From: Taiwanofungus camphoratus
Taxonomy: Eukaryota > Basidiomycota > Agaricomycetes > Polyporales > Taiwanofungaceae
DNA length: 64,000 bases
Assembly (NCBI GenBank): GCA_003999685.1
Contig: CP021229.1
Location: forward strand, 1,674,001 to 1,738,000
Direction of reading: 5' to 3'
Shown in pieces: positions 2,020 through 64,000 of this stretch (position 1 is its first letter; every line of letters starts with the position of its first letter). The translations under genes were made by a program, and so were the position numbers. Under the pieces are notes generated by a model. It saw only the letters and a program-made list of their open reading frames with translations. It did not search any database and was not told the DNA's origin.

Positions 2020-5000
2020 ATGAAGTTCTTCCTTACCATTGCGTCCTTTATCACCAGCACAATTGCACAGAGTGCGACAATCAGTGCCCCACTCAATGGC
2101 TCTATGCTAGCCAGCAGTTCTTCTATCATAATAGAAGTTAATCAAGCTGTCAGTGCAGTCTCAGCCTGCATATTGTCTGGGCTTGTTGACTTGTTTGTAT
2201 GCTTACTTGATACAATTTCTTTTATTGCATACCTTATCGGTCGGACCTCGGATCGGTGATGAGTCCCGTAGCCTCCTGGGCCCCGAATCGCGATTTTAGG
2301 AGCTTTCTAATCCCCCAACCGACCACTCTAAGACTCTTCTACAGCCTATGACAGGAGGGATAGGTTCCTATAATATTCCTAACGCCTCCTTTTCTTCCTA
2401 AACCCTTCTAACACCCTATGAAGTCTTGCGAAGTCACACGAGGTGCTACGAGGTTTCAAATGCTAGACGTGAAGTCCCTAACTCCTGCTAAGTCCACTAT
2501 CGGACACTGCCGGCCCTCCCACACTGTTCCATTGGATCTAGGTCCTACCTACTACGTCACTCATCCCGGGCTTAGCTAAGAAGTCTTAGCTAAGTCTCTC
2601 CTAGCTCTTGTGATTGCAGCTACCTCCGATAGGCTCTGAAACGGTCTGAAGTTCTGGAAGCTGGACTTAGGAAGCCTTGCGCACCCCATGGGTCTCGATC
2701 CTATGCCATAAGGTCATCCTAGGGCGTATCCATATGGTCCTCCACCCAGTTAGGACACCTCCTACCCCGATTAGGCCAAGTCCCGCTGCTAAGAACTTTG
2801 TACGCTCTTAGCCCACTAAGATAGTTGATCACGGCGCATGGCTGCTCTCAGATAGTCATCCTGCCCTTGTGAATGAACTTGGTCACCTTTCTACCGTACG
2901 TAGTTCCCCTGTTTCAGTTCCTATTTAGTTCCTATCCTCCTCGTGTTCACTTCGGAGCCCATGCGCTTTAGTACACATTTCGGACTCGTAAGGATCACTT
3001 CGCGCAAGAATAGTTCATCTCACACTCCCCTATTTAGTCAGAGGTAGTTTACTATGTACGAGAGAGACCCCTCAGTGTGTTACTGTTGGGTAGGACTAGA
3101 GACGTGTTCGTTTTTTCTTTCCCTTTGTTTGTCACACCATGGACGCGCGGCATCCCTTCCACACCTTACTTACCCAGATTGACTGATGGGCCGACCGTCC
3201 CCGCTTACGCCATGGTAGTTATGTACTTTCGGACCGCTGACTCCTCTCACCTTATGCGGTCTCTGGGGGGCTGCTAGTATACCTGGGGGTTGGTGGTGGC
3301 AGTATAAAGGGGGGTCCCACTGTTGGAGGTTCCCCTAGTCGTATTCTCTTCGTTCATCCTTTCCTAAAGTGTACTACGCATTAGTACCAATACACGCTAG
3401 TCTTCACACATCTTCTTGCACCTCAAGAAGCCCGTAAAGACTATTGTGACTACATAGGGCTTGTAGTTGAAGACTACCGAGGATCATGACTCGTCGTCAC
3501 CATCGCTCCTCTTCGACCCTTTGCTGCACACCGCTCCAAGCTTCTGCAGCATTACCAGGGTGAACCCCCCGATAACACTAGAATACGACTCCACAAACCC
3601 GAACCCGTCCAGGTTCGAGAAGTCACAAGAAGACAGTGCCTAAAAGACCCGTATCGGTCTCGAAGAAGGCGAGGTCAGCGTACTCATAGGATTAGTACTG
3701 ATCACCACGGATTATCAACGACCTTTTGATATCGACTACAAACAAGAAGAAGAGCTGGATCACGCAGCGTTTGACCCTACTCTCCCGACTTTAGAAGAGG
3801 TCCTGGATCAAGCTGAGCGCAACCTCAGAGCCATTCTCCATGCCGATAGTTCCACCAGTTTCCTCCCAGCTGAACAGAGGGAGCTGATTCTTTACACCCG
3901 CTCCCGCATCTCCAAAGTCAGTGACGCTTGACAAGCTGTATTAGAAAATCACGACAGGCTGGCAAGTAGGAAAGGGAGCCGACCTCTACCTCCCACTCCC
4001 TCTGAAGATTTTGACGAAGTCCTTGACCACCGTATCCTCACTGCTCAGAAGGTGCTCTCAAACCCACGTTTCTCATTTCAGTTGGCCGTTCCCATAATCG
4101 TGAACCTATATCAAAGGCTACTGAGCGCCCAAGATTTCTATCGCCGGTGGCAAGCTGGATCCATCCTCCAAAACGAGGCGGAGGTCGACCCTGACGTGCG
4201 CCGGGAAGGCTCATCGTTATCAAGCGGAGAACAATCGGGACGTACACCGACATTACACGAAGACTTCTAACTGGAGGGTCTGCTCAACGCAACCGTGCCC
4301 TCACCGCTACGACTCTGCACTCTACAGGGGAAGTGATTTCGAACCTTGTACTCCAACCAATCGTGCCCTCATCCAGGCCCGCTGGACAACCTTTGACGAA
4401 ACTGACCCACCCTCTGACGAAGGCTCCAGCTCAGAACTGACCGATCCTGACATTGAACGGACAGAACGACAAATGGAGACTGAAGGGACAGGAAAAACAT
4501 CCCCTTCCACCCCGGAAACGCCCCGTGGCTTGAGCTCTTTCCGATCAGGAATAGGGGAATCAGGGCCACCGCCTGACGATGGGCTGGGGGAAGAAGGCCC
4601 CCTTGAGGGAGGGCCACCTTATGATGAGAGCAGAGGACCCCCAGGAGGACCACCTGGTGGAGGAGGACCACCTGGCGGAGGAGTGCCCGGTGGAGGAGGA
4701 CTACCCGGTAGAGGAGGACCACCTGGGGGAGGAGGACCCCCCGGGGGAGGACCTCCTGGAGGGGGGCAGCCTTCTGAAGGAACACCCCTCCCACAGGGAG
4801 CTGCACGGGTACCAGACCGAAAAGAGCCAGAAATTACTAAGTTCTCTGGAAAACGAGAAGATGCCCAACACTTCCTCATCCAATTTGCCCGAAGATTCGA
4901 CACCGAGCGATGGGCCTCTGCTTCCAAACGAGAAAAGGTCGGCAATTTCCTTGGCCACCTCGAAGGCCATGCTGGTGCTTGGGCCGATACTCTTACCGAA

Positions 5001-8000
5001 AAGGCACTCGAACCCCACCCCCTCATCCGAGGAGTGAGCCAGGGGTATGGCACTTTCAGGAATGTCGCTTTCGAGTTCATTAAAAGGTTCGGGGTAATAG
5101 AGGAGGAGGTCTCTGCAGCCATCGGACTACGGAACTTGGTCTACACCTACGACAAACCCATTGCCAATTTCAACGAGGAGTTCGACCGACTGGCCCGCAG
5201 GACAGAAATCACTGAAGAAAGTGCCCTTATGGCCTGGTACCGAGAAAAACTACCCAGCACCATGCGAGTCCGAATCATGGAACGAGATGTAGCTCCCACA
5301 ACCCTAGAAGGATGGAAGGAAGCTGCTGCCCAACGGGACCGGGCCTATCAAAACAACAAGGCCATCGATGCCGCTCAAAGAACTTCGAAAACCCCTCCAC
5401 AAGTCGCAGCAAGGGCATTTGACAGTGGAAAGCCAGACCATCAGCGCTTGCAAGACCGAAGGACGGGCTCCTGCTACAAATGCCACAATAAGGGGCACCT
5501 GGCCAAAGACTGCCCAGAGCGAACCTCAGGTCGGAGAACAGGACCCCCAAACCGAAGGGCCAACATGAAAGATGAAAATGAGGCAGATGATGAAGCCTCT
5601 GAGCAGGAGGAGCAGGGGCAAGAAACGAAAGGAGTCAGATTCCCCCACTTCTCTCAGCACCACGACTTTGCGGATTTTCTGTAAGGCGACCTGACGTGAC
5701 GCACGAGTCGCCTAAACTCTCTGTACGAAATGTAATTACCGGAACGCGCAAGCGCAATACACTTTATCTACCAGGTTACATCGTAGTAGGAGAGAAAGCC
5801 GTCACCGCATGCCCCTTGTTGGATAGTGGGGCTGACGCCAACCTAATTCACCCCGACTTTGTAAGGAAGTGGGGACTCCCCACTCGACCGCTTCCCAGGA
5901 CAGTAACCTCAACCACCATTGATGGCTCTACAAACAAAGGGAGACCGATTACCCACAGAGTCGAAGGGAGTATACAATTAGAGGGGAACGACATCCCAAC
6001 CAACTTTTACGTCTCAAACATTGGAACGCTCGATGTAGTACTCGGCAACCCCTGGCTCGCACAAGTCAACCCATGCATTGACTGGGTAGAAGGGACGCTC
6101 GAGATTGACCAAGCTCGACTCACAGAATGGCAAGGATACTATGCCTGGGTCATGAGCCAACCCACGACAGATGGAATTCCCCTGTGTCGAGCTTCCATTC
6201 ATGAAGACGATGAGGAGCTTTCGGACATAATGTGTGCTTACACACAAGGAGAAGGGGTTCTGGGGATTTTCCAACAGAAAGAGCAGCCGCTCACACGTGA
6301 AGACGGGCTACTGCAGGCCCTAAAGCCCCCACAAGTAGGGCTCAATCGACTAACACACTTCTCTGACTCCCCACGTATGATATGGAATGCCCCAGAGCTC
6401 ACGGAATTGGTGATCCCCAAGGACCCACCCCCATCCGTAGAAGACCTCATCCCAGAATACCTGTGGGACTATAAACGGTTGTTTGAAAAGGAGGCCGCCA
6501 ACCGGTTCCCAGAATCCAAGCCCTGGGACCATGCCATTGAATTAAGGCCAGACTTTGTCCCCAGGAAATGCGCAGTAATTCCTTTGTCTCCAAATGAACA
6601 AGCGGCGATGGACAAATTTCTGGAAGAGAACCTGGCCAAGGGCTATCTCTGGGAATTGAACTCACCAATGGCGTCACCAGCCTTTTTTGTCAAAAAAAAG
6701 GATGGTACCTTGCGCCCGTGCCAGGACTACCGATACCTGAACAAGGGCATGATCAAAGATGCCTACCCCTTACCCCTCATAGGAGAGCTAATTGACAGGC
6801 TCCAAAGGGCCACTGTGTTCACTAAATTAGACCTCCGAAACGGGTACAACAACATCCGGATCAGAGAGGGCGACCAATGGAAAGGAGCATTCATGGTCAA
6901 ACATGGGAATCAGGACAAGATCGTCAAACCCACTGTCATGTTCTTTGGGATGTGCAACTCGCTGGCCATGTTTCAGCGAATGATGAATGACACATTCCAG
7001 GACATGCTGGCCGAGGGGTGGATCGCGATCTATATGGACGACATCCTCATTTTCTCTGACAATATGGAAGCCCACCGAGAACGAACCAGACGCGTCCTAC
7101 AACAGCTGCAGGAATGGGATCTATTTGTAAAGCCAGAGAAATGCGCGTTCAATGTCGTTGAAGTTGACTTCTTGGGAATGACCATCTCACCTGGACAGGT
7201 GCACATGGACAAGGACAAACTGGCAGGAATCGCAGATTGGCCCATTTCTACTAGGATCAAGGATGTAGAACGATTCATGGGTCTCGCCAACTACTACCGA
7301 CGCTTCATCCACAACTTCTCCCACATCGCTCACCCCTTGAATGTCATCAAGAAGAAGTGTGCGGAGTGGAACTGGACCGAAGCCTGCCAGGAGGCCTTTG
7401 ATGAGCTCAAACGGTGTTTCCAGAGCATGCCTATCCTCCGCATGCCCGACCCGTCCAAACCATTCACCATTGAGGCCGACGCCTCTCTGGTAGCCACTGG
7501 TGCAGTGCTTCAACAACTTGATGAGGAAGGGCGGCTACACCCTATAGCTTTTCTCTCGAAGAGCCTGAAAGAAGCGGAGCGGAATTATCAAGTATATGAC
7601 AGAGAGCTGCTGGCCATTGTCCGAGCACTTGAGGAATGGCGCCACCACCTTGAGGGAAGTGGACACCCGGTCACGGTGATCACCGACCACAAGAACCTCA
7701 CCTATTTCTGAGAAGCACAACGACTCAACCGACGCCAGGCCCGATGGCAGTTATTCCTGTCACAATTTGACCTGCAACTATTAAACAAAAAAGGCAGTCG
7801 ACTCATAGTCGCCGATGCACTCTCTCGGTGACCTGACCACCCAGGAGGGAAACATGACAATGAAGATGTCATCCTGCTACCAACAGACCTCTTTGTCAAC
7901 GCCACCAACACTGCAATCATCGAAAAGATACGTGAATGTCGTACCCGTGACAGGATGGTCATCGAGACGATTGACGCTTTAAAACGGGGGAAGGTACCGC

Positions 8001-11000
8001 CATTCAAGGGCACAGGCTTTGCGCACACAAAGCTGGCAGACTGGGACATTCAGGAGGGACTAATTTTATACAAAAACAGAGTTTACGTACCTCCTGATGA
8101 TGATCTGCGCTGAGAAGTCATTCAACTCTGTCATGACACACCAGCAATGGCACACCCAGGGGCACAAGGTACAATGGCCATCGCTCGAAGGGACTGGTTC
8201 TGGCATGGAATGTCTTCATTCATCGAGAAATATGTTGAGGGGTGCACCAAATGCCAGGAGAGCAAGATCAACACACACCCCACGAAACCCCCCCTAATGG
8301 CCATCCCCACAGAACCGAACTCAAGGCCATTCTCTCACATATCGGTAGACTTCATCACTGATCTACCAGAGTCACAGGGCTTCAATGCGCTCATGGTAGT
8401 AGTTGACAGAGAACTCACCAAGGGCATTGTGCTCATACCCTGCACCAAGAACATAGATGCGGTAGGGACGGCAGAGGTCCTACACCTCAATGTATACAGG
8501 CGATATGGCCTACCTGACCGGATGATATCCGACCGAGGGCCACAGTTCGCAGCGGCCGCATTTCGAGAATGGTGTAAGCTGACAGGAGTCAAGGCGGCAA
8601 TGTCCACCGCCTACCACCCCCAATCAGATGAGAGTACAGAACAGGTCAACCAGGAACTGGAGGCGGCCTGGAGAATCCTATGCGCAAATGACCCCCACAC
8701 CTGGGTCAAACACATCCCCGAGTTTGAATTCGCACACAACCAGGTGCCGCATGCTGGAAGGAAGAAATCGCCATTCAAGCTCACCATGGGGTACGACCCG
8801 AAGGCCATCGGATCTCCACGACCCTCTGACAAATACCCCACGCTCCAAGACCGCCTGATCCAGATCTCTGAATCCCGTAAAGAGGCTCTTGCAGCGCAAG
8901 AGCTAGCCCAGAAGCTGATGGAGGAATGAACCCCTTTTCCCTGGAAACCTTTCCAGGAAGGCGACAAGGTTTGACTAGAAGCCACGAACCTCCGGCTAAG
9001 GACAATAAGTCAGAAATTTGACCCAAAGCGGCTTGGACCCTTCAAGATCACGGAAGCCAAGGGGCCACTGACATACAAGCTACAGCTCCCGAGAACCTGG
9101 AAGATTCACCCGGTGTTCCATGCATCGCTGCTCACCCCATACAGGGAAACAGCGGAACACGGACCCAACTTTCTGAAACCATCACCTGATCTGGTCGAGG
9201 GGGAAAAAGAGTACGAAGTCGAGGCCCTCCGCGGGCATCGTGCCCGACGTGGGAAATGAGAGTTTCTCATCAAATGGAAGGGATGGCCGGTCTCTGCCAG
9301 CACCTGGCAGAAGGAAGACGATCTACGGCATTCCCCTGACCTGCTGAGGCGTTATAAGAAGGCAAACCACCTAGGCATCAACCCAGTTGACAACCGTTCA
9401 ACTGCCCTGCAAGGAGCCATTCCGCAGCACTTCAAGGCCGCCTCCCACCATGTCCCATCGAACCAACGCCGCCCGAGCCCGCCTTGCCGCCTCCATCCTC
9501 ACCGCAGGAAACGCCCGCACACTGAATCCCTTTCTTCGGGGACCGCAGAACCTCCCCAACTTCACCGAGGGGATTGTTGTCCCCCTACCTCGCCAAGCAA
9601 CATCTGGCCTCGCCGCCGACTTTCTGACCCCCGCCGACCGTCTCGGATGGGTGCTGGCCAACGAACGACTACGCCCGGCGGTGGACACCGCCCTCGTTGT
9701 CTGGCCTGATCTTGCGGCCCAGGTTGCCATCTTTCGACATCAGGCCGAGGTTGTCTTACACCTCGATCAGGTAATAAGGGGGTACAGAGGGGAGAGGGAG
9801 AAGGGGGAGCATGACGAAGCTAAGTGGTGGGCCAGCCCCATCCGGGAAATTGGTATATCGTACTGGCAGGCCTGTAATGCAACGCGCTCCCATCTAAATT
9901 TCCTCCTTCGCACCGACATCGTCTCCGCCCTCGAGCATCTCCTACCACCCTCCTCCGTCATCACACGCCCGGCCCCCTCCACGCAGGACGAGTGGACAGT
10001 TTGTCTCCACCCCGAGTGCCGCCCCCTGAACCGATGGACTGGGGCCTGTGAATTCTGCATGGGCCTCGATCATGTTGCTGCTGACTGCATCCACCGGCCA
10101 CGACTGGGGGAGCCGGCTGTTGAGCCCTTCGTCCCGCCTCGCTGTCTGGATTGTTTCACTGACGATCACGACACCGACCAATGCCCTAAGGCAGGGGCCG
10201 CCTGGTCGGAAATCAGTGGGTCGAAGCAGCCTGACGAGGAAGCTACCAGGTCATGAAGGTAGGTGTCGGGGCGACACCTGAGAGGAGACGGGGGTAGTGT
10301 TACTGTCGGGTAGGACTAGAGACGTGTTCGTTTTTTCTTTCCCTTTGTTTGTCACACCATGGACACGCGGCATCCCTTCCACACCTTATTTACCCAGATT
10401 GACTGACGGGCCGACCGTCCCCACTTACGCCATGGTAGTTATGTACTTTCGGACCGCTGACTCCTCTCACCTTATGCGGTCTCTGGGGGGCTGCTAGTAT
10501 ACCTGGGGGTTGGCGGTGGCAGTATAAAGGGGGGTCCCACTGTTGGAGGTTCCCCTAGTCGTATTCTCTTCGTTCATCCTTTCCTAAAGTGTACTATGCA
10601 TTAGTACCAATACACGCTAGTCTTCACACATCTTCTTGCACCTCAAGAAGCCCGTAAAGACTATTGCGACTACATAGGGCTTGTAGTTGAAGACTACCGA
10701 GGATCGTGACTCGTCGTCACCATCGCTCCTCTTCGACCCTTTGCTGCACACCGCTCCAAGCTTCTGCAGCATTACCAGGGTGAACCCCTCGGTAACACAG
10801 TGCACACTTCTCTCTTTGGAATACAAGTTCCCCTGTAGCTCTGATCTCAGGAAAGCACCACGAGTACAACCTTAGGAACGGTCCTAAGGCCCTTAAGTCT
10901 CCACCCCAGCTCCGTTTCAGTACCTCTGAACTACGTCTACGCTTGCGATATATCTACGAACCACGTCTACGCTTCCCGAACTATGCACTACGATCTACGA

Positions 11001-58862: not shown

Positions 58863-58882
58863 TTAGGTTAGGTTAGGTTAGG
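58863..58882 (+). repeat. TTAGG array 1 (4 units)
   Basis: Four perfect copies of the pentamer TTAGG, followed directly by AGGTGGAGCGAGCAGCG. Confidence 0.9.
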
Positions 58883-58951
58883 AGGTGGAGCGAGCAGCGC
58901 CGCAGGTGCTGCGAGTGCGATACGGGCTTGAAAGGAGGACTTAGAGGAAGC
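58883..58951. other. Short hairpin-bearing insert between TTAGG arrays
   Basis: 69 bp. Starts with AGGTGGAGCGAG, the same word that opens the larger blocks at 59204 and 63883, followed by a hairpin CAGCGCC-GCA-GGTGCTG. Probably the stump of a telomere-attached element. Confidence 0.5.
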
Positions 58952-58992
58952 TTAGGGTTAGGTTAGGTTAGGTTAGGTTAGGTTAGGTTAGG
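58952..58992 (+). repeat. TTAGG array 2 (one TTAGGG plus seven TTAGG)
   Basis: One hexamer TTAGGG followed by seven pentamers. Confidence 0.9.
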
Positions 58993-59117
58993 AGGAGGAG
59001 ACAACAGCGCCGCAGGTGCTGTTGGTGCGCTAAGAAAGGAAGAGGCTTAGGAGAAGCTAGTACTAATTAGCCCGATATCGCTATCGGACGGCTAATTTCG
59101 ACTAAGTCTCATCAGGG
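58993..59117. other. Second hairpin-bearing insert between TTAGG arrays
   Basis: 125 bp. It repeats the CAGCGCC-GCA-GGTGCTG hairpin and adds an interrupted hairpin with arms AATTAGCC and GGCTAATT near 59065-59100. No coding capacity. Confidence 0.5.
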
Positions 59118-59203
59118 TTAGGTTAGGTTAGGGTTAGGTTAGGTTTAGGTTAGGTTAGGTTAGGTTAGGTTAGGTTAGGTTAGGTTAGTTAGGTTAGGTT
59201 AGG
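59118..59203 (+). repeat. TTAGG array 3 (about 17 units, some variants)
   Basis: Mostly TTAGG pentamers with single variant units (TTAGGG, TTTAGG, and one shortened unit). Confidence 0.9.
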
Positions 59204-59263
59204 AGGTGGAGCGAGACCGCCGATAGGCGGGCGAGCGTAGTAAGAGATGAGAAAAATAGAGAA

Positions 59264-59336
59264 GACAAGAGTAAACAAAGGTATCTGTCGCCAGATACCA
59301 ACTTGTTTCGCTAAGGAGCTCATCAGTACTCTCGTC
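59264..59336 (-). ncRNA. Hammerhead ribozyme, type I, complete
   Basis: On the minus strand all conserved parts are present in order: stem I arm GACGAGAGUA; core CUGAUGA; stem II GCU/AGC with loop CCUU; core GAAA; stem III with an outer C-A-A-G paired to U-U-U-G, a small bulge, and an 8 bp helix GGUAUCUG/CAGAUACC closed by the GNRA loop GCGA; cleavage triplet GUU; and the stem I partner UACUCUUGUC. Stem I pairs over 10 bp with one G-U. Self-cleavage is predicted between plus-strand positions 59274 and 59273. Hammerheads are known from Penelope-like retroelements, where they process the transcript. Activity is inferred from structure. Confidence 0.85.
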
Positions 59337-59344
59337 GTACTTTT

Positions 59345-59405
59345 AACCGATGGTTCAGGGTCATCAGATGATTGACCCTGAGTCATCGGCCGGAGGCCGA
59401 TGACT
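59345..59405. other. Three contiguous hairpins next to the ribozyme
   Basis: AACC/GGTT (59345-59355), CAGGGTCA/TGACCCTG (59356-59380) and a perfect 11 bp stem AGTCATCGGCC/GGCCGATGACT with loop GGA (59381-59405), back to back, just upstream of the ribozyme on the minus strand. Confidence 0.75.
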
Positions 59406-59602
59406 GATTCTATTTGACCAACCAGGCCATGAGGTAGTGGTGAGCTCCAATCACATTAGAGCTATTTCTCTTATCTCTTATCAGCGGGCCGACAAAAGGC
59501 AGGCTAGAACGCCCTAGCCTTTACCAATACCGCCACCTGATCAGAGATAATAATCAGATGTAAAGATAAGGAGTCATTTAAGATGACTCATAGATAAGAG
59601 AT

Positions 59603-59630
59603 CCCTTATCATCGGTTAGGGTGATAAGGG
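59603..59630. other. Hairpin displaying a telomere-like loop
   Basis: A 9 bp stem CCCTTATCA/TGATAAGGG encloses the 10 nt loop TCGGTTAGGG; on the minus-strand RNA the loop reads CCCUAACCGA, complementary to the G-strand repeat. Confidence 0.6.
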
Positions 59631-60055
59631 TGGGAATAGAACAATCCGGGCCGGTGCCGACCGAGTCACATGACCGGTCCGACTTCCGGGCGCCTAGATA
59701 AGGGCAGCGTGGACCACTGAGGAAGCATCATGTCACGGCACAAACCTGAGGATCCCTAGGAACACCCTCACCGAGCCATGCGGGGCGGGGGCGGGATATT
59801 CACTAGGACCGCGTCCGGCAAGTTGCCGCACCGTGCCATAGCATGTTACACCTCACAGATCACCGGATCATGGACTAACACAGCAGAGGGGCGCTGGTGA
59901 CCATAACTAGGTAGTGCCCAGGCCAGTCCAGCCTTGCGGCTCAACCGGTCCGTGCCTGGATGCTGGTTACATGGCCGGCCCTCTCGGGCAAGTCACGTGA
60001 CGAGCATCTTATTTCCCAAAGCTACCAAATGGAGAAGGCGCGATAGCGCCTTCAG

Positions 60056-60134
60056 TTAGGTTAGGTTAGGTTAGGATTTAGCGTTAGGTTAGGTTAGGTT
60101 AGGTTAGGTTAGGTTAGGTTAGGGTTAGGTTAGG
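60056..60134 (+). repeat. TTAGG array 4 (about 15 units, a few variants)
   Basis: TTAGG pentamers, preceded by a hairpin AAGGCGC-GATA-GCGCCTT (60035-60052) and followed by the 3' end of the Penelope-like element. Confidence 0.9.
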
Positions 60135-63100
60135 TCTGGTTTGAACAGACAACCCTAAGTGCGAATAAACGCAAAAGGTAGTTACACCAATAACCTTAAG
60201 CTAAACAAATCGAATCAACCGATTTATATGTCCATTTCCAATAGTACATCATCTGTACTTTGGGCATTAATTACACTTCTGCGCCATTTGCTTGCTAAGT
60301 CAGCGAAATTGGTTTCCCTTTTACGCGACACAAGCCAGCGCTTGTCTAAGAACCCGAGTTGGGAAAGGTCAGGGACCTTCTCCGCTTCGATGAATCCGTT
60401 GGGTTTCTTCAGGTACCGCCCAGTCCAAACCCAGCCCTCGTCCGCGCGGTTGTCATGGACAACTGCCACCGGTTTCGAGATTTGATCGGACCGCCTGGCT
60501 TCAGCGGCGGCGAGTTCTGCTGCTGCTTCCGCAGCCGCCGTTTCGCGCGACAGCTTGCGCTGGGCTACTCGGGCGGGATCCCACCACTCCTCAAGCGTGG
60601 TCTGAACTGTGCTGGATAGGGTCGCATCCTTAGGACCCCCAGACGAATACTCAAAGATCGGAGCGGCCGAGTTTTCCCAACTCGCCGAAAAGAAGGACTT
60701 AAAGAAAGATAAATCCTTCACCCACGATTCCGTAACACGTGTCATTAATTCATGAACATCGAACTGATCCCATGAGGGGTTGAACTTCGACTTAATCGCA
60801 AGTACGCCCTCAACTTGGTCTGCATCTTCGGTCGAAGATTTTGGTTTTCCAAGACGTTCTTTCCAGCGTACCGCTTTATGCGAATCAAGCCAAGAAGTAA
60901 CCAGAGCAGGGGGATAGCCACGGCCGACATACAGGTCGACAAGCCCATGAAGGGCATCTAGGTAGTGTTCCAACTTAGAACTTAGCGTAGCTAAACGGCT
61001 CATCTCCCCAATGAATGTGCCTTTTTTCACATCCTTCGGGTGGTGAGATACCCATGGAATTCGTTCATGATGGTTAAGTGCTTTCCGATATGGCTTATGT
61101 TCCACCCGGTTAGAAACGGGGTCTATATAAATAAGCATGTCAAGGAATGGCGTCGCCCATTCAGACACTTCCCATGTTATAGTGCAGCCATCATAAGATA
61201 TACGGCTTTGGCAGGCTTCTAAAGCTTCTGCCGCACTACCTGCTTCAACTATGGCGAATACATCATCAATGTATCGACCATAATATAGGAACGGTGGAGT
61301 AACCTGTCCACCGGGCCATACTTGATTTTCAAAATGGCATCCATAGAGATTAGCTAAGTCAGGCGAACACGCCACACCCATAGCTAGTCCTCGTTTTTGA
61401 AAGTAAGTACGACCGTTGAAGTCGACTATTAAATCGTAATTGGCTGTTTGCATGCACCTGATAAACAGCGCATTATAAAACTGGGGCTGGTCCATAGACT
61501 GACTACCCAGAGGATGTCTTGTGTACAATTTGGACACAATGCCAACACAATCTCTGAGTGGTACATTTGGGTAGAAAGCGACAACGTCGCCAGCCACTAA
61601 CCAATACTTTTTCCATTTTAACGTTTTAACCTTTGCTAACTGGATCGCAAGATGTTTTGATCCGTGTATAATGAAGGACTCAGCCTCGATAATAGGTTTC
61701 AACAGTTTAGATACAACTTTAGCCGCGGGCCCTTGAGCGCATGAGTGACATGGAACAATAGGTCGCATCTTTACTGGGGATTTATGGATTTTTGGGATCC
61801 CGTAAAAGATAGGCACCTTTGGTTCCTCTAACTCGCTCTCGGGACATTTTGACCGGAGGAATTTGGCTAATTGGAGTGTCTGATCGTTAGGCAAAGCCCC
61901 TTCGACCCAATCGCTTAACTCCTTAACCCGCTTTGTAACTTTTTCTAAATACATCTGTCGCTGACCGGGATTAATTTCCTGATAGTCAGCCGTATTTGAC
62001 AGAAGATTCATGCAACCATTAATGAACCATTCCCTTGTGACTACTGCCGCACCGAGATTCTTGTCCGTTTGGAGAACGAGGTAGTTATGCTCGTTCAACC
62101 AGAGGCGAACACGGTCCAGGTCTACAAGCCGATTAGGGTGGCTTCTAGCTTTCAAACCGGGTACGACACTACGTATGTAATCAGTGACGTATGTTTGCCC
62201 GCGTTTAAGACCGTTTTCGATATATTGTGTGGCCCTAGGGGCGGACGAGTCCCGCTTAGCCCTAAGGTCGTAGTCTGGATCATAAGGTGGTTGGCTTATA
62301 CCTTGCCGTTCGAGTTGAATCTGTTTAACTTTAAAATACACTCGCCAGCGTATTCGTTCACAGAAATCATCGAACGCTGTTTGAATGAGTTCCCCGCTCG
62401 GGGGGGAGTACAACATATATTTCAAACCGCAAGATATGTGTATGCTAATGTCCGGCGGTAATATAACGTCCTCGCCACAATGCACCCAGCTTCTGAACCT
62501 CGCCGCTTCGACTAAAGCAACCGGAGCGAAATAAAGGAGGGTGCGAGCTGCAACTGGCAAGGGTAACATTAGGATACTGTCTGGATAAGACGACGGCTGG
62601 GAGAAACGGAGTCGCGAGCGAATAACTGACCGAATTATTTCGCTCTCCCTTTGCCTTTCCGATCTTTGGTCTTCTTCTGCTTCTTCGCAGAGGAAGCGGC
62701 CTGCTGCTGCTTGGCCTTGCGCTGCGGAGGTTTGGGAGGGCGTCCTCCCGTACTCATGCGCACCGATCGTTTTGGCGCCTTTGCCTTTGCTCCCTAAAAT
62801 ACGTGATAGAGCGGCGCCTGGTAAGCTTTTTGGAACAGAACCATGTACAAAACTTACCGCGTTCTTTGAGCTGCCTTCGCCTTTGAGACGACGATCAACC
62901 GCATCGTCGATCAGCTTTTTCAAAGCTGCAGGGTTCTCGGTGGCGTCACCCATCTCGACCTCCGCTGCAGCCTTGACGGCAGACTTTGCTTGCGCTCGAG
63001 CCGCGGCTTGTGCCAGTTGTGATTCACGGATATTAACTACCCGGAAGGCAAAGCGTGGGAGCACGGCGACGAATCGCTTGTACTCAGACTCGAGGACAGG

Positions 63101-63870
63101 GTCATTGGTCCACGTATCTAAGCGTTGACCGCCGTCGATAGTTTCCCTCCAAACAGGAACGCGACTAGACTGGCTAATGCGCGCCCACTGTTCGTCAACC
63201 ACTGTCCGCATTTTCTCCAACATTGCTGTCGGGTCTAATGCGCGATCAAAGAACGCGAGCTCTGCTCGCTTTTGGGCGATGGCCAAGTCAAGAGCCTTCC
63301 GACGGAAGGATTGGAACTCGGTTATCAGAGCTGCGGGCTCCGCCGGCGACGTCTCGAGCCAGAGTTTTGAGCTCTGGAAGACGGGTTCGCTGAGCCCCTG
63401 TAACTGGTGGGGGAGCGAACCGTTAGCTTTGTGCGACTCAAGGTCACCCAATTGCTTCTGCAAAGAAACAGAACGTTCCTTCGCTTCCGCAACGCTAACC
63501 AGCACCGGACGGAGCACCTCTCGATAGACGAGAGGTATAGCTGAGAAGACTTGGTCAATGGTCTCTGCGTGAAAAATGGCTCGGAACTCATCGGCAACAG
63601 TCTCAAGCGATGCCGCCCCGATAGCGTACGATAAGCTCGCGGGGGCAAGATTCCGGGCAATTGCAGACCTAAGTGAGGCAGACCCGGGACCGACGGAAGA
63701 AGAACGGGGTGTGGAAGGTGGAGCCATGCGAACGGCGGGGGACGATAGTAGATCGACTCAGACTTGGGCTTGTAGAATCGATTGCAGTCGTCACAGAAGA
63801 TACCGACAGTCGTGCACCAGGTAAGGGGCTTGCGGTGGCGGATGTAGAGAGACAGCTTGGCGGCGGTGTT
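60135..63870 (-). mobile_element. Penelope-like retroelement, endonuclease-deficient (Coprina type), apparently whole
   Basis: A 3.7 kb element with one long ORF. Its 3' end adjoins a TTAGG array on the G-rich strand, and its 5' side is linked by two TTAGG units to the next telomere-attached block. This orientation is what is expected if the element RNA is reverse transcribed from the 3' OH of a telomeric G overhang, as described for Athena (rotifers) and Coprina (fungi). No GIY-YIG endonuclease is encoded. The 3' UTR is short (about 90 bp). Confidence 0.85.
60224..63727 (-). CDS. Reverse transcriptase of a Penelope-like element
   Basis: 1167 residues without a break. N-terminal 330 residues are helical and low in recognisable domains. 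The Penelope-type palm and fingers follow: TDKNLGAAVVTREWFINGCM, IFYGIPKIHKSPVKMRPIVP, YWLVAGDVVAFYPNVPLRDC with a catalytic Asp, KRGLAMGVACSPDLANLYGC, YYGRYIDDVFAIVE with the YIDD catalytic pair, and WATPFLDMLIYIDP. RKALNHHERIPWVSHHPKDV then matches the thumb region of this family. The C-terminal 200 residues end LASKWRRSVINAQSTDDVLL and show no GIY-YIG motif. The enzyme should copy the element onto chromosome ends. Start set at MAPPSTPRSSSVG, 225 nt downstream of the ribozyme cleavage site in the neighbouring block. Confidence 0.93.
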   Translation of the reverse strand: MAPPSTPRSSSVGPGSASLRSAIARNLAPASLSYAIGAASLETVADEFRAIFHAETIDQVFSAIPLVYREVLRPVLVSVAEAKERSVSLQKQLGDLESHKANGSLPHQLQGLSEPVFQSSKLWLETSPAEPAALITEFQSFRRKALDLAIAQKRAELAFFDRALDPTAMLEKMRTVVDEQWARISQSSRVPVWRETIDGGQRLDTWTNDPVLESEYKRFVAVLPRFAFRVVNIRESQLAQAAARAQAKSAVKAAAEVEMGDATENPAALKKLIDDAVDRRLKGEGSSKNAVSFVHGSVPKSLPGAALSRILGSKGKGAKTIGAHEYGRTPSQTSAAQGQAAAGRFLCEEAEEDQRSERQRESEIIRSVIRSRLRFSQPSSYPDSILMLPLPVAARTLLYFAPVALVEAARFRSWVHCGEDVILPPDISIHISCGLKYMLYSPPSGELIQTAFDDFCERIRWRVYFKVKQIQLERQGISQPPYDPDYDLRAKRDSSAPRATQYIENGLKRGQTYVTDYIRSVVPGLKARSHPNRLVDLDRVRLWLNEHNYLVLQTDKNLGAAVVTREWFINGCMNLLSNTADYQEINPGQRQMYLEKVTKRVKELSDWVEGALPNDQTLQLAKFLRSKCPESELEEPKVPIFYGIPKIHKSPVKMRPIVPCHSCAQGPAAKVVSKLLKPIIEAESFIIHGSKHLAIQLAKVKTLKWKKYWLVAGDVVAFYPNVPLRDCVGIVSKLYTRHPLGSQSMDQPQFYNALFIRCMQTANYDLIVDFNGRTYFQKRGLAMGVACSPDLANLYGCHFENQVWPGGQVTPPFLYYGRYIDDVFAIVEAGSAAEALEACQSRISYDGCTITWEVSEWATPFLDMLIYIDPVSNRVEHKPYRKALNHHERIPWVSHHPKDVKKGTFIGEMSRLATLSSKLEHYLDALHGLVDLYVGRGYPPALVTSWLDSHKAVRWKERLGKPKSSTEDADQVEGVLAIKSKFNPSWDQFDVHELMTRVTESWVKDLSFFKSFFSASWENSAAPIFEYSSGGPKDATLSSTVQTTLEEWWDPARVAQRKLSRETAAAEAAAELAAAEARRSDQISKPVAVVHDNRADEGWVWTGRYLKKPNGFIEAEKVPDLSQLGFLDKRWLVSRKRETNFADLASKWRRSVINAQSTDDVLLEMDI

Positions 63871-63872
63871 GG

Positions 63873-63882
63873 TTAGGTTAGG
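63873..63882 (+). repeat. Two TTAGG units at the 5' junction of the Penelope-like element
   Basis: TTAGGTTAGG, between the 5' side of the RT-bearing element and the block starting AGGTGGAGCG. Confidence 0.8.
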
Positions 63883-64000
63883 AGGTGGAGCGAGACCGCC
63901 GATAGGCGGGCGAGCGTAGTAAGAGATGAGAAAAATAGAGAAGACAAGAGTAAACAAAGGTATCTGTTGCCAGATACCAACTTGTTTCGCTAAGGAGCTC
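63883..64000 (-). mobile_element. Second copy of the ribozyme-bearing telomere-attached block, cut by the window edge
   Basis: 118 bp nearly identical to 59204-59321, with one visible difference (C to T at a CpG). It continues beyond the window. Confidence 0.8.
63943..64000 (-). ncRNA. Hammerhead ribozyme, second copy, truncated by window end
   Basis: Shows stem II, GAAA, stem III, the GUU cleavage triplet and the 3' arm of stem I; the 5' arm of stem I and part of the CUGAUGA core lie outside the window. The stem III loop is GCAA instead of GCGA, so it remains a GNRA tetraloop. Cleavage would make an RNA starting at 63952, upstream of the reverse transcriptase ORF. Confidence 0.75.

Follow-up and report, generated by a model that had tools for sequence, protein, structure and literature searches.

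A complete type I hammerhead motif, designated family A, occupies positions 59264-59336 on the minus strand of the window, by which we mean the whole stretch of 64,000 nucleotides that was analysed, and its predicted cut lies between 59274 and 59273. The site is a genuine motif of this class, its sequence predicting cleavage, and the surrounding host has the appearance of a Penelope-like element (PLE) that is attached to telomeres and lacks an endonuclease. As an explanation of the whole, we consider it probable that such an element carries the hammerhead, is primed internally by the telomere, and uses slow or conditional cutting as a switch. The motif, its conserved pairing, the orientation of the copies, a constant 10-mer and the junctions are directly visible in the DNA. 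The preliminary description of this locus as a complete type I hammerhead within a fungal, telomere-attached element was borne out for the hammerhead and for the attachment to telomeres, and the element also has a reverse-transcriptase (RT) open reading frame (ORF); cutting of transcripts by the family, which that description proposed, is a prediction here. The genome looks fungal, the window also coding for a Zn2Cys6 cluster and for a portion of a Chs7 chaperone.

The hammerhead motif and its predicted fold

All core positions of a hammerhead are present on the minus strand between 59336 and 59264, and the layout is that of type I, i.e., three helices meet at the core, stem I is open, and stems II and III are closed by loops. 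Stem I pairs 59336-59327 with 59273-59264 over 10 bp, one of which is G-U; it is followed by CUGAUGA (59326-59320), a stem II of 3 bp with a CCUU loop (59319-59310), GAAA (59309-59306), and a stem III that reaches U16.1, contains an internal loop and is capped by GCGA, a GNRA loop. U17 is 59274, and cleavage is predicted after GUU, before the second strand of stem I. When checked position by position, the coordinates and strand in the preliminary description were correct, and the conserved positions, three stems, 10-bp stem I and GNRA-capped stem III that it had claimed were all present. It should be noted that this hammerhead is not the sole one in the window, where a truncated family B copy and a partial second family A copy were also found.

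An 82-nt piece folded alone had a minimum free energy (MFE) of -28.8 kcal/mol, compared with -17.2 (sd 2.9) for shuffled sequences (z -4.0), and none of 200 shuffles was as good. In the MFE structure of this piece all three stems were formed, stem I lacking one of its ten pairs, and the core held some additional pairing; the strict hammerhead fold lay 1.3 kcal/mol above this MFE. In a 221-nt context (59200-59420, minus strand), the MFE structure was a different fold, in which GAUGAG of the core pairs with CUCAUC downstream of the cut, while the centroid retained stems I and III and had no stem II. CTCATC is found in all four distinct family A cleavage products and in none of the 17 of family B; in these folding models, the GAUGAG-CUCAUC pairing is a possible off-state of the family A hammerhead. 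Since stem II is only 3 bp long and no loop-loop contact was seen in the family A hammerhead, activity may be low.

Searches for the motif were made with a descriptor, with Rfam, and with a model built from the genome itself. The descriptor, which required the core, a stem II of at least 3, a stem III of at least 4 and a stem I of at least 6 pairs, matched once in the 64 kb (both strands) and not at all in 100 dinucleotide-preserving shuffles. No Rfam family reached its gathering score in the 64-kb window, no Rfam hammerhead family matched 59264-59336 at E<=10, and five further stretches (L013, L038, L040, L026, L061) also gave no Rfam match at gathering score; the truncated family B copy scored 18.3 bits against RAGATH-1-hammerhead, for which the cut-off is 56.3. 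A covariance model trained on nine family B sequences alone, from the same genome, recovered the family A motif (59340-59263) at a score of 31.8 bits and an E-value of 4.4e-7 in 64 kb, the calibration being rough. Thus, the covariance-model search, which had been proposed earlier as a check on the motif, had a divided outcome: Rfam returned nothing at threshold, an outcome that the preliminary description had named as refuting the motif, whereas the genome-derived model detected the site. Because the model trained only on family B matches the family A motif, we attribute the lack of an Rfam match to the limits of the Rfam models and do not count the motif as refuted; an Rfam match is a database test and no defining feature of a hammerhead ribozyme.

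Conservation of the motif in two families

The stretches analysed comprised 31 blocks with 184,543 bases, in which most loci were chosen for carrying the motif, and contained 74 hammerhead sites with 17 distinct sequences. For comparison of families A and B, 14 of the 17 distinct hammerheads, all collected by the core pattern, were aligned; those left out were two 5'-truncated copies (C10:1733115, C1:11687) and one deletion copy (C1:4265013). The last belongs to family B and has lost 3 nt at its cleavage site. CUGAUGA, GAAA and the A15.1-U16.1 pair were identical in all 14 aligned copies, which is to be read with the rows having been collected by the core. In a 60-column block of the A/B alignment that covers most of the motif, identity was 47%, with the core kept.

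Over the 17 pairs of the three stems, the 14 copies were 99.1% paired, compared with 81.0% in shuffles, and cells changed on both sides numbered 41 against 15.3; neither value was attained in any of 500 shuffles. The covariation score was likewise higher than in every one of 500 shuffles (0.516 vs 0.210), and slid structures scored at most 0.175. Two other measures did not rise above the shuffles: pairs with two-sided change numbered 8 (7.5 in shuffles, 287 of 500 reaching 8), and further pair types numbered 10, which is lower than the 12.5 in shuffles. The paired changes represent few independent events, because they mostly reflect a single split between A and B. That the site is a chance or decayed look-alike of a hammerhead, devoid of function, is a reading to which the missing Rfam match could lend itself, and we regard it as highly improbable; it is contradicted by the pairing conserved in families A and B, and is also opposed by the failure of all 100 shuffles to match the descriptor, the match of the B-only model to A, and the number of sites and distinct sequences in the stretches analysed.

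The host element and its place at chromosome ends

In reading order, the second family A hammerhead (63943-64000, minus strand), which is cut by the right end of the window and is complete in L011, stands ahead of an RT ORF of 3504 nt and 1167 aa (60224-63727, minus strand). Between this hammerhead and the ORF leader is an encoded TAACCTAACC (63871-63880, minus strand), the proposed pairing site for the telomere G overhang. Past the ORF, a built-in telomere-like stretch (60055-60135, minus strand) bears the marker GCTAAATCC, which recurs in many A copies, and is followed by a pLTR-like repeat region (59202-60054, minus strand) with the hammerhead near its 3' end. The 72 nt that follow the cut site (59202-59273, minus strand) extend to CCTCC, the conserved 3' end of the element, and telomere repeats (TAACC)n in sense orientation stand past the 3' end of this family A copy (59116-59201, minus strand). 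They are followed by the family B hammerhead without the 5' strand of stem I (59056-59115, minus strand), to which telomere repeats join at CUGAUGA and which, judging from what remains of it, is presumably inactive, and by a 72-nt insertion between telomere repeats (58881-58952, minus strand) whose start lies 6 nt into the cleavage product of family B. The telomere-like variant upstream of the repeat region is fixed in each family, being GCTAAATCC in A and GCTAATCC in B, and several terminal copies begin inside the built-in telomere-like stretch, as if seeding a new telomere.

The RT ORF matched the Pfam profile RVT_1 with 28.7 bits, just below the curated cut-off of 29.6. No other Pfam family was found at E<=1 in the family A ORF or at E<=0.01 in the family B ORF, a profile miss being no proof; specifically, no GIY-YIG endonuclease domain was detected by Pfam profile search of the A and B ORFs. 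An NCBIfam search gave weak RT matches and nothing else, a PDB search gave no match, and an AlphaFold model of the RT part was unusable (pLDDT 36). The ORF also contains YIDD and other motifs that we take to be PLE-like. The ORF of the family B element is 81% identical to that of A, with dN 0.13, dS 0.81 and dN/dS 0.163.

In the genome of 33.2 Mb in 15 contigs, the core pattern had 218 matches, compared with 18 for a reversed control. Among the 100 matches listed, 86 were of A or B type and were located in arrays at contig ends, within ~32 kb of the end (the length of C4 not being listed); all 86 read inward, i.e., the strand was plus at left contig ends and minus at right ones. The remaining 14 of those listed had unlike stem II sequences and were scattered. 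Identification of some internal pattern matches as tRNAs was unsupported, as was a telomere on C6 adjoining an rDNA array, there being no Rfam match at gathering score for either; a tRNA scan of the window found none. In the 31 stretches, copies of the element are separated by TAACC repeats, and their 3' end is constantly CCTCC (in a few, CCACC), while the 5' ends occur at many places and are joined to telomere repeats. Overall, the element is attached to telomeres with its 3' end proximal, and its 5'-truncated copies are capped by telomere repeats. A different element, an LTR-type retrotransposon, lies at 4473-8929 on the plus strand of the window, with gag, protease, RT, RNase H and integrase in separate open frames; the domain order protease-RT-RNase H-integrase suggests that it is of the Gypsy type.

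Copying, predicted cutting and known relatives

All 18 ORF leaders in the 31 stretches were preceded by an exact TAACCTAACC and then CCTCC, with a hammerhead core upstream; this count was not blind, as the leader seeds came from an earlier listing of sequences after such tails, and some of the 18 copies are near-duplicates. Inserted copies stop at CCTCC and are followed by telomere repeats, and the cut site precedes the encoded CCUAACCUAACC by 65-78 nt, the distance in family A being 72. Insertions ending at the place of the 10-mer suggest internal priming by the telomere. In the proposed mechanism, the G-rich chromosome end would pair with the encoded CCUAACCUAACC inside the element RNA, and reverse transcription would begin at this paired stretch, internal to the RNA and away from its 3' end, the start point being the encoded UAACCUAACC and the primer the TTAGG telomere. 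The cDNA would run back through the hammerhead, then through the upstream repeat and ORF, and telomerase would cap its end. Uncut RNA would give long copies, and RNA cut before copying would give run-off insertions of 65-73 nt. Cleavage, priming by pairing, and the switch are what we infer from these arrangements, and the hammerhead is retained as a fold and probably also as a slow or conditional cutter.

CCTCC-type tails numbered 77 in the stretches, of which 18 were leaders and the other 59 were mostly insertion ends. A hammerhead core with its 3' arm was found within 140 nt upstream of 52 of these 59, which indicates that the templates were uncut there; the test asked for core and 3' arm alone, the 5'-truncated B copy of the window being counted among the 52. 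Among the remaining seven, C3:23530 and C1:4264893 reach beyond the cut as well. The sample of tails is biased to copies of the motif, and two of the remaining seven came from a targeted search. These uncut tails would also be expected if the hammerhead were kept only as a fold recognised by the RT, presenting the telomere-complementary stretch, with cutting vestigial or harmful. Such a presenting role has been given for the Terminons of rotifers (PMC6431247), and for a lizard PLE, hammerhead mutants had no effect on insertion in vitro and no RNA-seq read had either of its ends at the cut (PMC11167929). Nonetheless, the full catalytic core, needless for a mere fold, is kept in both families while the flanks diverge, and two insertions start exactly at the cut; we treat retention as a fold alone as possible, and as the less favoured reading of the motif.

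The two insertions are at C9:1733608 (65 nt) and C13:1458924 (73 nt), where junctions fall at the family B cut, the reversed control giving 0; they come from subfamilies of those lengths and lie between telomere repeats. A gapped search with CTAGCTTC over ~-26 to +4 of the family B copies returned the same two junctions and one unrelated internal match, i.e., three matches compared with four in the reversed control, and a similar looser pattern gave three against three. Because the reversed controls match as often, these looser-pattern counts alone prove nothing; their internal matches, C7:260442 and C6:212248, were taken as unrelated. When short insertions ending in CCTCC were sought regardless of the cut, 14 were mapped and reversed controls gave 0. 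Of the 14, two start at +0 of the cut, and for three (C9:3299 and two on C11) the offset is only approximate, none of the reference copies being identical to these insertions. If starts were uniform, at least two would fall at the cut with a probability of 0.017-0.059 for all 14 and 0.0095-0.035 for the 11 of family B, for a target of 1 or 2 nt. Family A had no junction at the cut, none being found within 12 nt or 10 nt, and one at about -20; in family B, junctions elsewhere included two at 5 nt before CUGAUGA, on C1 and C11, and one, in the window (C10), at the start of CUGAUGA. Telomere repeats are also interrupted by a lone CCTCC at C4:2945190, C9:95 and C11:141, places that are possibly insertions of a few nucleotides and were left out of the 14.

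The two insertions that begin at the cut are a suggestive sign of cleavage; starts may also be steered to this place by a telomere-like junction base. We put forward only tentatively, and with some doubt, that the 65- and 73-nt insertions are cDNA footprints of ribozyme-cut RNA in living cells, the hammerhead switching between full-length transposition and aborted short additions.

Fungal endonuclease-lacking PLEs were reportedly described by Gladyshev and Arkhipova in 2007 and named Coprina. The present element is like the Coprina type in apparently lacking an endonuclease and residing at chromosome ends, the likeness being drawn by description rather than by sequence comparison. Fungal PLE hammerheads are said to be stable monomers (Cervera and De la Pena, 2014).

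Like the present element, the Terminons/Athena of bdelloid rotifers have a hammerhead near the 3' end, then reverse-complement telomere repeats, and they form head-to-tail arrays in which 5'-truncated copies are capped by telomere repeats (PMC6431247, PMC3846280). More generally, the truncated 5' end of endonuclease-lacking PLEs receives telomeric repeats, and such elements have been reported at chromosome ends in fungi (PMC3846280). Unlike in Terminons/Athena, a single RT ORF, a repeat unit of 4679 bp and a TTAGG telomere unit are found here, and the telomere-complementary stretch, which follows directly after the ribozyme in Terminons (PMC6431247), is 65-78 nt past the cut, ahead of the ORF. 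PLE hammerheads reside, as here, in flanking repeats near the ORF start (PMC6155905, PMC11167929); they are usually minimal, without helix III (PMC6155905), whereas a full stem III is present here. In the lizard PLE, reverse transcription initiates internally, within the ORF start and downstream of the hammerhead, and the hammerhead cut only when its protein was present (PMC11167929). Hammerheads in fungi were reported in 2011 (PMC3088659), and PLEs have been linked to telomeres in Agaricus bisporus (PMC7473861).

The retrozymes of plants are, like the present element, retroelements whose flanking repeats contain a hammerhead (PMC6155905). They are 600-1000 nt long and non-coding and have type III hammerheads (PMC6155905), while the present element encodes its own RT and has a type I hammerhead; with an ORF of 3504 nt and a unit of 4679 bp as well, it does not qualify as a retrozyme. 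The hammerheads are spaced by 4679 bp at several contig ends, as might be expected if the ribozyme cut tandem transcripts to unit RNAs that were circularised and copied, as in plant retrozymes, to yield tandem copies; an internal priming site would permit the use of a circle. However, uncut tandem transcripts or recombination also predict tandem spacing, and the unit is far above the size of retrozymes, making copying by way of circles an unlikely explanation.

PLE hammerheads, telomere-linked fungal PLEs, and rotifer hammerheads beside telomere-complementary repeats are thus already known (PMC6155905, PMC7473861, PMC6431247). The fungal element is a fresh example of the known pairing of a hammerhead with a telomere match, a combination that related elements also show (PMC6431247, PMC11167929). 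In a literature covered in part, with key papers missing, we came across no account of cDNA ending at the cut of a PLE hammerhead, nor of the leader 10-mer in a fungus. Whether PLE hammerheads cut in cells is unsettled, given the mutant, protein-dependence and RNA-seq results for the lizard PLE (PMC11167929). This fungus is a test ground for cutting in the cell, since its compact genome contains numerous nearly identical copies and two ribozyme families that have diverged, and its junctions are sharp; the 10-nt telomere match, being constant, hints at a possible start of reverse transcription.
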